DNA from: Plasmodium brasilianum
Lineage: Eukaryota; Apicomplexa; Aconoidasida; Haemosporida; Plasmodiidae
Length of the DNA stretch: 64,000 bases
Direction: 5' to 3'
Assembly: GCF_023973825.1 (NCBI RefSeq)
Contig: NC_090118.1
Location: 528,501-592,500 of the forward strand
The translations under genes and the position numbers were made by a program. Below the pieces are notes generated by a model. The model did no database searches, was not told where the DNA came from, and saw only the letters and a list, made by a program, of their open reading frames with translations. Shown here one piece after another: positions 34,856 through 42,981 of the stretch; position 1 is the stretch's first letter; each line of letters begins with the position of its first letter.

Positions 34856-37800
34856 ATGGAGTATAAGGAAAAGCCTGAGGGACCGTTCTTTGTTTCTTTT
34901 TACGTAAGGATAAAAAAGGAAAGAAGTAGAAGTACATGTAGGCGTAGACGAGGAAGAGGGATTAACTCCTTCCATATTTTGCGCATTGCTTGCTGATTCA
35001 TATCTTTTCTCTTTTTTTCTTAAAAAAAAAAAAAATAATAAATAAAAGATTACAAATTTCACCGCATCCGATGAGTTAGCTTCGTACAAAATAACTGTAA
35101 CAGGTAAATTGCCAAAATTTAGGGGTCTTGCAAAAAAGAGATGAAACGACAAGATGAAATGATTAAACGAAATGAATAGACGAAATGAATGGACGCATTT
35201 ATTAGACAAAATGAATGGACGCATTTATTAGACAAAATGAATGGACGAATTTATTAGACAAAATGAATGGACGAATTTATTAGACAAAATGAATAGACAA
35301 AATGAATGGACGAATTTATTAGACAAAATGAATGGACAAAATGAATAGATGAAAGAAAAATGGGAAAAAAAATATATATATATATATATATATATATATA
35401 TATATATTACAATATTATTTTACCATAATACATAATCATAGCTGCATGCCAAACAAATGAACACAACATCCATCCTTGTAAACTTGCAGATTTCTACGGC
35501 AATTCTTACGAATCAAATGTTATAAACACAAATGGGCATCGTCAAATTAATTTTCCAAACAACTACATTGAGATTAATGAGGGTATGCGCACAGATAGAA
35601 CGAAACGAAATGAAGCCTAGTGAAATGAAACCAAAAAAAAAAAGGAAAATAATAAGAAAAAAAAAAAAAAAAAAAAAAAAAAAAAAAAAAAAAAAAAAAA
35701 AAAAAAAAAAAAAAAAAAAAAAAAAAAAAAAAAAAAAAAAAAAAAAAAAAAAAAAAAAAAAAAAAGAGAAAATAATAAGAAAAAAAATGATGTATATAGC
35801 GAAATAACTAGCTGAGAAAAATATATTGATACTTTCTTCATCCATCCCTCTCGTTCAACTTCAATTTACCCTTATTAGAAAGTGCCATAAACGATATAGT
35901 TGAACATTCCTTAAAAATTGAAACCTTTGCAAAAGCAAATAACATTGACGATAATGACAACAAAGAGGATAATGCCACCTGTGATGGCAATTTTATTTCT
36001 ATCGCATCAGAAAACATAAAAACTTTCCCGTTTTTACATGAACAGTTAATAATTACCAAAAATGTTATAGTATCTTATAAATACGAAGAAAAAAAGGATG
36101 AACAGAATAATAAAGAAAATACTGAAAATGAAAAATACAAAAAGAAAAAAATTAATGAAAAAGAAGAAAAAAAGAAAAATAAAAAAAAAGACAAGGGCAA
36201 AAATAATTCAAAAGGGGAATCGGACAAGTTGAAGAATTGTATAAAGACGGATATCAATATAAGTCAGTCTTAGAAACGTGCATTTCGTTGCAGCTGTTAG
36301 AGCAGTTACATGCTTGTCTCTGTGCATGTGTACTCCATTTTGTGTATACATTTGGACGTTTGTTTGTAAATGTATTTGTTTGTATGCTCCTTAGTCCATT
36401 TGTACATTTGAGCGCTTTTACACAAGTACGTGTTTGCTATGTTTCCTCTCCCTCCCCAAGGCTTTTATATCACGTTCAACATAAATTCCTTGGTCGGACA
36501 CTACTGCGGAAGATCGAACTACAATATAATGAACATAAGGGTTAAATTATTGTTCACCTGTGTACTTGCTCTTTCATTAGTATGGGCATGTGCGTATATG
36601 TATATATATATGTATGTGTATGTGTATGGGTGTGTGTATGGATATATGCATATGTATATATACATATGTGCGCATACATACACGCGCGTGTAAGTCAAAT
36701 GCTTGTGCATTTTTTTTTTTTTTTTCCCTCATTGAAAGGTTGACGGGGTGTATAACATACCCGCGTCTGTCGGCGAGAAGATACCAAAAAAAGCTGCTCT
36801 CTCTTTTCAAGTAAGATTATGCATTAAAAGAGCTACTAATTTTTGATGATCTTAAAAGACCATGAAACGTGGACATGTACAAGCATATACCCATACACAT
36901 AAACATATATATGTACGCACTTCATGTTTGCTGATGCGTACATATTGTTCTGTGCCACGGCACATTCCCATTTTTGCTTGTTTTATTTTTTCGATTCACC
37001 ACCTTGCAGTTAAAGTTTCTCGACTTCTGTTTCACGGATGGTACCCTTGAAGAAGGTTTGTCTATTTTTTTTTGTAAAAAATTTTTGTTTCTCCTTCATT
37101 TTTTATATTTCACTTTCTATTTTTCATTTTGTCCTGTATGCATTTTGTTTTATTGGCATTCATTTTGTGCTAATGCAGAGACAGAACGTGATAAGTATAG
37201 CATTAAGTGGGGTAAAAATAATATATACAAATACCGAAATATAAAGGTACTGTACATAGGAATGAATACTTTATATGTAATGCTATTAACCATAGGACAT
37301 ACTATTATTTCATTAAGACAAAAATATATTTGTCTTACTATAGGAAACTGAGTATATTTACAATTTTTTGTTCTATGAATCATTCGATGTTAATGCTTAT
37401 TTGCTATGCTTTAATGAAAATAAAAAGCAAAAAGGTAAAAAAAAAAAAAAAAAAAAAAAAATATTTAAAATTTATCATCAATTGTACATATATATAAAGA
37501 AAAATAAAACAAAAATTTTGAATAAATAATTTTTTAGAAATAGGCACAAACATAGTATTCACTCTGCTCAGTCACAGCAGTGCGGAGGGAAGCATGCACA
37601 TATATACGCATACGAATATGTACATGTACCTATATAAGTACGTATTGATATGTATATGCACGTATACATAATCCTGTTCGCCCTTAACCCCTTTCAGACG
37701 GAGCATCCACCAAAATGGTGGAATGCTTATGTGGAATGTTCGAAGTTAACATATCAGACGTCATATCTAATAGAGGTAAAATGGAAAAAAAAAAATTAAA

Positions 37801-40800: not shown

Positions 40801-42981
40801 AAAAAGGAGGAGAGCAGAAAATAAAAAAAAAACTAACAAGAACACAATTGATAGAAAAAAAGCTGATCACATAACAGATGACTGCAAAAATGAGGACTAC
40901 AAAAATGAGGACTACAAAAACGAGGACTACAAAAATGAGGACTGCAAAAACGAGGACTACAAAAATGAGGACTACAAAAATGAGGACTGCAAAAACGAGG
41001 ACTGCAAAAACGAGAACTACAAAAATGAGAACTACAAAAATGAGAACTACAAAAATGAGGACTGCATAACAGAAAAACAAATGGACTTGAAGAATCTACA
41101 TTTATACAGCACATTCAACTACAACAATTTAAATATAACTAAAGAAATTTGTATATATATAAAAGCGCTGTGCTACTTTTTCCAACGCAATTATATATAC
41201 TATTATATTAACATGTGCATTCTTTTAAATACGAATGAAAATGTTCTCAAAAGGGAAATTGAAAAAAATGTCAACTTGTTTCAAGAAGATAAAGAAAAAA
41301 ATGTAAATACGCAGTTCGACGGTAAAGAGAGTATAAAGAAGGAAGAAGACTCGCCCAGGGATGAGAAGAAAAATAAGGGTTCCAAGAAGAGCATCAGGAA
41401 AAAGGAACAGATAGTAGCTGGAAGAGCGGGAGAAGTGAACAAAGATGTTAACAAAGTAGACGATGCTAACAAAGTAGACGATGCTAACAAAGTAGACGAT
41501 GCTGACAAAGTAGACGATGCTAACAAAGTAGACGATGCTAACAAAGTAGACGATGCTAACAAAGTAGACGATGCTAACAAAGTAGACGATGCTAACAAAG
41601 TAGACGATGCTAACAAAGTAGACGATGCTAACAAAGTAGACGATGCTAACAAAGTAGACGATGTTAACAAAGTAGATGATGTTAACAAAGTAGATGATGT
41701 GAACGATGAGGAGGAGGCGAACAAGGAGAACACTTTAGAAGAAGCAAAAACAAAAACAAAAGGCAAAGCAAAAAAAAGGGGGCAGCAAACACCTACCAAT
41801 AACGGAAGCACAGCGGTTTTCCCTGAAATTCGTGTAGACAACATACCATTGAAGGATAAATATATGATTTTGTTTCTTATATATTGCATAAAATTTAATA
41901 TGTTAAATATTGTCATGTACATTTGTGAAAATAAAAATAAGTTTTTAACGGAAGTGTCCATAAATACTAATTTGTACAAGCAATTAACTATTAGGGCATT
42001 TTTTGCTATTAAAGGTGAGAACAAAATTATGATTTACTTAGTATACATTTGTTTGTGTTACATCTCACCGTGCTCACTTCAGAACGTATCACTTTATGGT
42101 CTTCTCAAGTTGGAATTTTTTTTTTTTTTTTTTTTTTTTTTTCTACAGATTATGTAAAGTGTGTTGAGCTCATTGAAGAAAGGAAAGAACACCTTAACAA
42201 CTTAGACATTCTTTATATTTATGGTCAAAGTTTGTACAAGTTAAGGGATTACGAAAAATGTATTGAGCCTTTAAAAAATTATTTAAAATTATGTACAAGC
42301 AATAATATTTGCGCAAAAATTTATGTACAGTTAAGCAAAATATATATTTGTTTAAATCTATTTGAAGAGTGCAAAATTATGATTAAGAATTCATTGCAAA
42401 TATGTTCAACAAGTTATGCTTATATATACTTTGCTTATTATTATTTAAGAAGAAAAAAATATTTGTTTGCATATAAACTGTTATATAAGTCGAATGAAAT
42501 CAACATTTTTAATTACAAACTCTGGGCATACCTATCGATAGTGTTCCTACACTTGAATATGAAGGTAAACAATAAAATGGAAATAAAATAAGAGAGGATG
42601 AAAAGAGGAAAAAAAAAAAAAAAAAAAAGAAAGGATGAAATGAGGAAAAGAAAGCAAACTAGGCAACGCAGACAAGGAAGCTACGCAAAGTCGCATTTTC
42701 GTTCATTTTTCCATTAAATGCGAGTTAAATTATACATGTGCGTGTAAATATATAAACACGGGAACACCATGCAAAAGCAGTACTACTGATTAAGTGCACA
42801 TTTTATCATTTCCTTTTCTGTATTTTATTTGTAGAGAGAATCCGATAGAAGTTTAAGTAATTTCATTAAAATGAAAAAGTACAATAAGGATGTTATTTCT
42901 GATATCATCGCAGCATACAAAAAACTTGGTTACGAGAAAGAAGAAAAACAATTATTAACATTATGTAAACAAATGGATTAA
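34856..42981 (+). CDS. CFAP70: CFAP70-like axonemal protein with C-terminal TPRs, 17 exons
   Basis: Model: join(34856..34903,35049..35103,35490..35582,35879..36262,36461..36540,36739..36810,37010..37055,37179..37246,37344..37434,37698..37775,37943..38080,38340..38469,38721..38886,39025..40323,40703..42014,42149..42564,42835..42981). That is 1540 residues, with phases matching at all 16 introns. CFAP70 (TTC18) is a flagellar protein with an N-terminal C2-like region and C-terminal TPRs that helps attach outer dynein arms. Here exons 1-13 encode a C2/beta-rich region (FFVSFYITNF..., later YVVLTIEFYKPF before LQRLTTDNIF, resembling the YIVLEIQ...ALVPKRM stretch I recall from vertebrate CFAP70). 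Exon 14 opens with an EEQQKEQQ run. Exon 15 carries YKNED and NKVDDA repeats (about 978-1250). Exons 16-17 encode TPR helices (residues about 1354-1540). In Plasmodium only male gametes have axonemes, so a male-gamete role is likely. Two donors are weak (AA|GTCAGT at 36262, AGG|GTTAAA at 36540). The gene model is firmer than the name; a different TPR cilia protein is the alternative. Confidence 0.75.
35130..35350. repeat. 26-bp array in intron 2
   Basis: Several copies of a 26-bp unit containing gaatggacgaatttattaga, inside intron 2 (35104-35489) of the CFAP70-like gene, followed by a (TA)n block at 35373-35407. Confidence 0.85.
35657..35765. repeat. Poly(A) tract of about 109 bases in intron 3
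   Basis: Uninterrupted run of A within intron 3 (35583-35878) of the CFAP70-like gene, flanked on both sides by the same gaaaataataag sequence. By far the longest homopolymer in the window; its exact length in an assembly is doubtful. Confidence 0.9.
38508..38600. repeat. 12-bp array in intron 12
   Basis: About eight copies of gtgaatatcgta lie just after the donor at 38469/38470 in the CFAP70-like gene. Confidence 0.85.
40345..40517. repeat. 20-bp A-rich array in intron 14
   Basis: Eight or so copies of a 20-bp unit containing taaaaacacaaaataaaaaa, immediately after the donor TTT|GTAAAA at 40323 of the CFAP70-like gene. Confidence 0.85.
40885..41070 (+). repeat. Coding 15-bp repeat (YKNED/CKNED)
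   Basis: About 13 in-frame copies of tacaaaaatgaggac or tgcaaaaacgaggac in exon 15 of the CFAP70-like gene encode YKNED and CKNED (the last few YKNEN). Confidence 0.9.
41443..41705 (+). repeat. Coding 18-bp repeat (NKVDDA)
   Basis: About 14 in-frame copies of aacaaagtagacgatgct in exon 15 encode NKVDDA, decaying to NKVDDV at the right. Nearly perfect at the DNA level, so recently expanded. The minus-strand Ser/Leu frame is a shadow. Confidence 0.9.

Follow-up and report, generated by a model that had tools for sequence, protein, structure and literature searches.

What does a long, conserved Plasmodium gene encode whose orthologs carry the database names 'unknown function', 'hypothetical', 'uncharacterized' and 'tetratricopeptide repeat protein'? 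We studied its copy in a 64,000-nucleotide stretch of the Plasmodium brasilianum genome (contig NC_090118.1, positions 528,501 to 592,500; hereafter the window). An earlier note, made from the letters of this DNA, had proposed CFAP70/TTC18. Profile search, profile-profile comparison, a mid-protein motif and collinearity all support this identity at the sequence level, and we consider the gene very probably the Plasmodium ortholog of CFAP70/FAP70 (TTC18), with a presumed role in C2a, a projection of the central apparatus, in the flagellum of the male gamete. Such an assignment would provide a likely identity for a conserved gene listed as unknown, in an organelle that is needed for fertilisation in the mosquito.

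CFAP70 is the closest match of the C-terminal repeat array

Above the Pfam cut-off, the window protein contained tetratricopeptide repeat (TPR)-type repeats only (ANAPC3), and the ANAPC3 match recurred in 13 of 13 family members, i.e., the window protein and 12 Plasmodium orthologs, which together form the 13-row Plasmodium profile used here. The C-terminal TPR helices that had been read from the sequence are present, as a CFAP70-like array at the C-terminus. When the window protein was compared singly with all PDB sequences, CFAP70 was the top match, albeit a weak one (E 0.022). As single-sequence E-values near 0.01 are unsafe (a fragment of another locus matched an endoglucanase at E 0.005), we relied on profile results. 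The Plasmodium profile ranked CFAP70 first of the eight PDB matches reported (E 1.6e-7), about three orders of magnitude ahead of BBS4 in second place (E 2.5e-4), and the matched stretch was the C-terminal end of the Plasmodium protein and of CFAP70 alike. Mammalian CFAP70s were also collected and ten of them aligned as a template, which HHalign matched to the Plasmodium profile at E 4.8e-7 over 201 columns; with full-length proteins, the TPR end was the sole region reported. Together with the PDB search, this bears out the profile check against CFAP70 that the earlier note had proposed.

The rank of BBS4 would fit a different TPR protein of cilia, be it BBS4 itself or a subunit of the intraflagellar transport (IFT) type. 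However, the BBS4 chain has 519 aa, whereas the Plasmodium protein has more than 1200 residues, with conserved blocks, before its confident C-terminal array, and Plasmodium axonemes are reportedly assembled without IFT (PMC4150949). We therefore regard a protein of this kind as highly improbable.

A second alternative is a Plasmodium-specific TPR scaffold without a ciliary link, whose resemblance to CFAP70 would be general TPR likeness. The restriction of the Pfam matches to TPR-type repeats speaks for it, as does the generic nature of the fold matches. We predicted a structure with AlphaFold2 for P0012, the sole ortholog under 1200 aa, which starts near residue 235; the model had a mean predicted local distance difference test score of 40 and was confident for the TPR array only. 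In a Foldseek search with this TPR model, CFAP70 came fifth (E 2e-5), behind three designed TPRs and bacterial LapB. VIA-align found many TPR proteins at similar Z, with CFAP70 at 12.8 and a chain (F) of the Chlamydomonas C2 entry 7som at 14.0. The structure comparison agrees with CFAP70 and is non-discriminating: Foldseek, also suggested in the earlier note, did list CFAP70, but the designed TPRs and LapB rank higher, and the model is that of the P0012 TPR array. Against the scaffold stand the lead of CFAP70 in the PDB list and two results from beyond the TPR array, which are given below.

Mid-protein segment and order of segments

In a domain-wise profile test, residues 366–474 matched CFAP70 columns 457–587, with P 0.007 against columns 1–641 and P 0.001 against the mid part of CFAP70, for which the template consisted of mammals and an added Chlamydomonas FAP70 row. 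None of 100 column-shuffles reached the score in either test, the best shuffle against columns 1–641 coming near the real score (25.8 vs 26.1). With a mammals-only template, residues 366–430 again fell at CFAP70 458–487 (P 0.011, 0/20 shuffles). The Plasmodium stretch AYVVLTIEFYK falls opposite GTYIVLEIQLDK of CFAP70, in a region common to mouse and Chlamydomonas. The motif YVVLTIEFYK, which the earlier note had pointed out, lies in the sole non-TPR segment whose CFAP70 match beat every shuffle.

The other N-terminal domains were not significant on their own against CFAP70, as 34/100 shuffles reached the score of residues 8–130 and 17/100 that of residues 190–365; the same was true of residues 612–700 (76/100). 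An alignment of the whole N-terminal half by summed pair scores, in four settings with 200 column and 200 block shuffles each, was not significant either, which is a further point for the TPR scaffold. HHalign gave P 0.07 for this half, with matching positions 52–116 vs 56–118. Taken alone, the N-terminal half is at most weakly CFAP70-like. The beta-rich fold that the earlier note ascribed to it is putative, the P0012 model being of low confidence outside the TPR array.

We then considered collinearity. We divided the conserved stretches of the Plasmodium profile into 16 segments, with bounds fixed after the mid-segment result was known, and the best place of each was sought in full CFAP70. 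These places were largely in order (tau 0.62, longest increasing run 10/16), and neither the tau nor the run of the real order was equalled in any of 189 block shuffles of the CFAP70 profile, while 9/189 reached the summed segment score. Segments 245–313, one of 313–365 and 366–430, 690–760 and 790–860 lay off the line, as did two TPR-like ones (880–950 and 1030–1110). The first nine segments alone were borderline (7/189 shuffles for tau, 9/189 for the run; Kendall p 0.12). As chance TPR similarity predicts no order, the order of the segments counts against a chance TPR resemblance.

Searches in the reverse direction gave a mixed picture. A six-frame search of the genome with one Mus caroli CFAP70 missed the gene, as the TPR scaffold would have it, and returned only another TPR open reading frame at E 0.01 (L004, G000:C14:~564.8 kb), which we take to be TTC27-like. 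A mammalian CFAP70 profile placed five of the 12 orthologs above the L004 frame and three below it, and reported neither the other four nor the window protein. With the non-TPR segment matching CFAP70 in the right place and the segment order above that of all 189 block-shuffles, we nevertheless consider the TPR scaffold improbable. CFAP70 remains the preferred identity, and we infer orthology in the strict sense.

Gene structure and conservation across Plasmodium

The exon chain was rebuilt on the forward strand and contains 17 exons and 16 introns (Table 1). All 16 introns are of the GT...AG type, and the joined coding sequence of 4623 nt gives 1540 residues with a single stop at the end. This reproduces the exon, intron and residue counts of the earlier note, with the same start and end. 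Its remark that the introns are all in phase is correct insofar as the joined exons read as one open frame, but the phases differ among introns. Intron 3 holds a stretch of about 100 A (window about 35657–35765), and a minisatellite with a unit of about 21 bases and several open frames adjoins the start codon upstream (window about 34440–34780).

Table 1. Exons of the CFAP70-like gene in window coordinates, with the residues encoded and the evidence for each.
Feature	Position	Strand	Residues and evidence
Exon 1, start ATG	34856..34903	+	Residues 1–16; MEYKEKP start in 9/12 orthologs (alignment)
Exon 2	35049..35103	+	Rebuilt chain; junctions compared with orthologs
Exon 3	35490..35582	+	Rebuilt chain; ortholog junctions
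Exon 4	35879..36262	+	Residues 66–194; Lys/Glu-rich insert at its end
Exon 5	36461..36540	+	Rebuilt chain; ortholog junctions
Exon 6	36739..36810	+	Rebuilt chain; ortholog junctions
Exon 7	37010..37055	+	Rebuilt chain; ortholog junctions
Exon 8	37179..37246	+	Rebuilt chain; ortholog junctions
Exon 9	37344..37434	+	Rebuilt chain; ortholog junctions
Exon 10	37698..37775	+	Rebuilt chain; ortholog junctions
Exon 11	37943..38080	+	Residues 339–385; contains AYVVLTIEFYK, aligned to CFAP70 GTYIVLEIQLDK
Exon 12	38340..38469	+	Residues 385–428; ortholog junctions, mid-segment profile test
Exon 13	38721..38886	+	Residues 428–483; ortholog junctions, mid-segment profile test
Exon 14	39025..40323	+	Residues 484–916; helical region, acidic/Gln insert at about 505–610
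Exon 15	40703..42014	+	Residues 917–1354; TPR-like helices interrupted by NEDYK and KVDDAN repeat inserts
Exon 16	42149..42564	+	Residues 1354–1492; TPR array, best CFAP70 match
Exon 17	42835..42981	+	Residues 1493–1540; final TPR helices, stop

The junctions are conserved among the orthologs: 171 of 186 junction-by-ortholog comparisons had no gap at the junction, the lowest value being that of junction 7 (7/12), and some of the gaps arise where an ortholog's gene model leaves out or keeps a piece, as in P0005 and P0011. The alignment spans the full length of most orthologs; P0012 lacks the first ~235 residues, and the starts of P0005 and P0011 are divergent. P. relictum and P. ovale are the closest relatives over well-aligned columns, with 59–60% identity. 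Conserved blocks with 48–63% identity (residues 1–130, 190–500, 612–950, 1035–1110 and 1290–1540) alternate with the long low-complexity inserts that had been described earlier, namely a Lys-rich insert (residues 134–190), which at 48% mean identity evolves more slowly than the others, and three fast-evolving inserts, whose mean identities are 15% (a value from seven orthologs), 22% and 34%.

When the whole 31.4-Mb assembly was searched in six frames with the P. ovale protein, 14 of the 16 matches lay on the CFAP70-like gene and the other two were weak ones elsewhere (E 0.003 and 0.03), so that the gene looks single-copy in a type of search whose counts for repeats and large families are lower bounds. 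Among 7994 candidates, a trimmed profile built from five Plasmodium sequences found the same 12 Plasmodium proteins only, and no alveolate intermediates.

A putative place in the central apparatus

Among the stages of Plasmodium, the male gamete alone carries a flagellum (PMC2944832), and we infer that the gene is expressed there. The earlier note had called CFAP70 outer-dynein-arm-associated. This description goes back to a 2018 paper in Cells in which tagging and electron cryo-tomography put the N terminus of Chlamydomonas FAP70 at the base of the outer dynein arm (PMC6162463). Later work corrects that assignment: electron cryo-microscopy structures of the central apparatus of Chlamydomonas and mouse, along with mouse knockouts, locate FAP70/CFAP70 in the C2a projection (PMC13345628; PMC12297659; PMC9113940). 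A CFAP70 ortholog working at the outer dynein arm instead of C2a would accord with the tagging, and also with a remark that C2a may vary by species (PMC13345628). In view of the later structures and knockouts, we find this location unlikely, and the same C2a role in the Plasmodium male gamete flagellum, by analogy, most likely.

In C2a, FAP70/CFAP70 is reported together with FAP65 and FAP147/MYCBPAP, and mouse knockout of CFAP70, CFAP65 or MYCBPAP leads to collapse of C2a and destabilises the central pair; positions are said to differ between the alga and mouse sperm (PMC13345628). Mouse CFAP70 is reported to be targeted to cilia by its N-terminal half and not by its TPR half (PMC6162463). If algal and mouse CFAP70 are a guide, the N-terminal half of the Plasmodium protein would anchor it on the axoneme, while the C-terminal TPR superhelix would bind its C2a partners in the central apparatus. 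The protein may thereby help to stabilise the central pair and join radial-spoke contacts in the male gamete flagellum. This makes it testable whether a C2a projection is present in an axoneme that is built without IFT.

Some possible partners were found. PF16, PF20 and some radial-spoke proteins have reportedly been detected in Plasmodium male proteomes (PMC4150949), and a Plasmodium PF20 homologue is described (PMC2944832). The HYDIN/CFAP65-type Ig family has fragments in the same assembly, one of them above the cut-off, and also matches 4/14 control genomes. One locus (L005 3814–4974 and following, G000:C9:~905 kb) is a probable multi-exon ASH-domain gene and a candidate C2a partner; the best PDB match of its first fragment was FAP65, weakly (E 0.011), and its second fragment gave chance-like matches only (endoglucanase, E 0.005). 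A further ASH fragment (L003, G000:C12:~3.111 Mb) matched HYDIN best in PDB (E 9e-5). A search of the assembly with the MYCBPAP family gave no match, and the control was equally silent. To our knowledge, no kinesin-9 is known in Plasmodium. We tentatively propose a reduced C2a in Plasmodium, consisting of CFAP70, a CFAP65-like ASH protein and PF20 and assembled in the cytoplasm without IFT, a composition that we deem possible though not quite probable. If true, the male gamete would offer a natural experiment on how few C2a components, and which ones, suffice to keep a central pair stable.

Genomic neighbourhood and literature

Just upstream of the gene lies a two-exon LSm-domain protein (window 33226–33614, +; Pfam LSM E 3.9e-10), which we take to be LSm3-like. 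Further upstream, an SNF2-family helicase frame (25205–30085, +) has two helicase domains that lie far apart; near the start of this frame, and in the same reading frame, there is a match to a collagen-like repeat. A 760-aa open frame adjoining the gene (44844–47126, +) had no Pfam match at E 0.01, and a MACPF/perforin-like frame is found at 60195–62393 (-; Pfam E 1.1e-32). In P. berghei, PPLP4 and PPLP5 are near neighbours. The LSm, SNF2 and MACPF neighbours presumably correspond to P. falciparum chromosome 8 near PF3D7_0819400 (PPLP4).

In the literature searched, we found no mention of PF3D7_0819700, PF3D7_0819800 or PBANKA_0710800 to PBANKA_0711300 (six numbers). PF3D7_0819600 does occur there, but may be a different gene. 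In the same literature, a search for CFAP70, TTC18 or FAP70 with Plasmodium returned only a review of Chlamydomonas repeat proteins, unrelated by its title. As many unannotated Plasmodium ciliary proteins from pull-downs are said to be identified in S1 Table of PMC11414920, the CFAP70 link of this gene may already be in print there.

Comparison with known proteins

The protein is most likely a new member of the already known CFAP70 family. Like mouse CFAP70 (PDB 9ijj chain k), it has a C-terminal TPR array that aligns to the end, the mid motif and largely the same segment order, and in the alignments a variable linker precedes the last TPR set in both proteins. Unlike mouse CFAP70, which has 1141 residues, the Plasmodium protein has 1540, with long low-complexity inserts, and its N-terminal half has diverged so far that it gives no significant match by itself. 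The mid segment and C-terminal TPRs of Chlamydomonas FAP70 (7n61, 7som) align with mammalian CFAP70; however, the FAP70 chain was absent from the PDB matches of the Plasmodium profile at E up to 10, and the likeness to it is indirect, via mammalian CFAP70. BBS4, a TPR-only BBSome subunit with no counterpart of the N-terminal half, shares TPR repeats with the Plasmodium protein and was the second PDB match, but its far shorter chain contrasts with a protein whose conserved blocks extend beyond the C-terminal TPRs.

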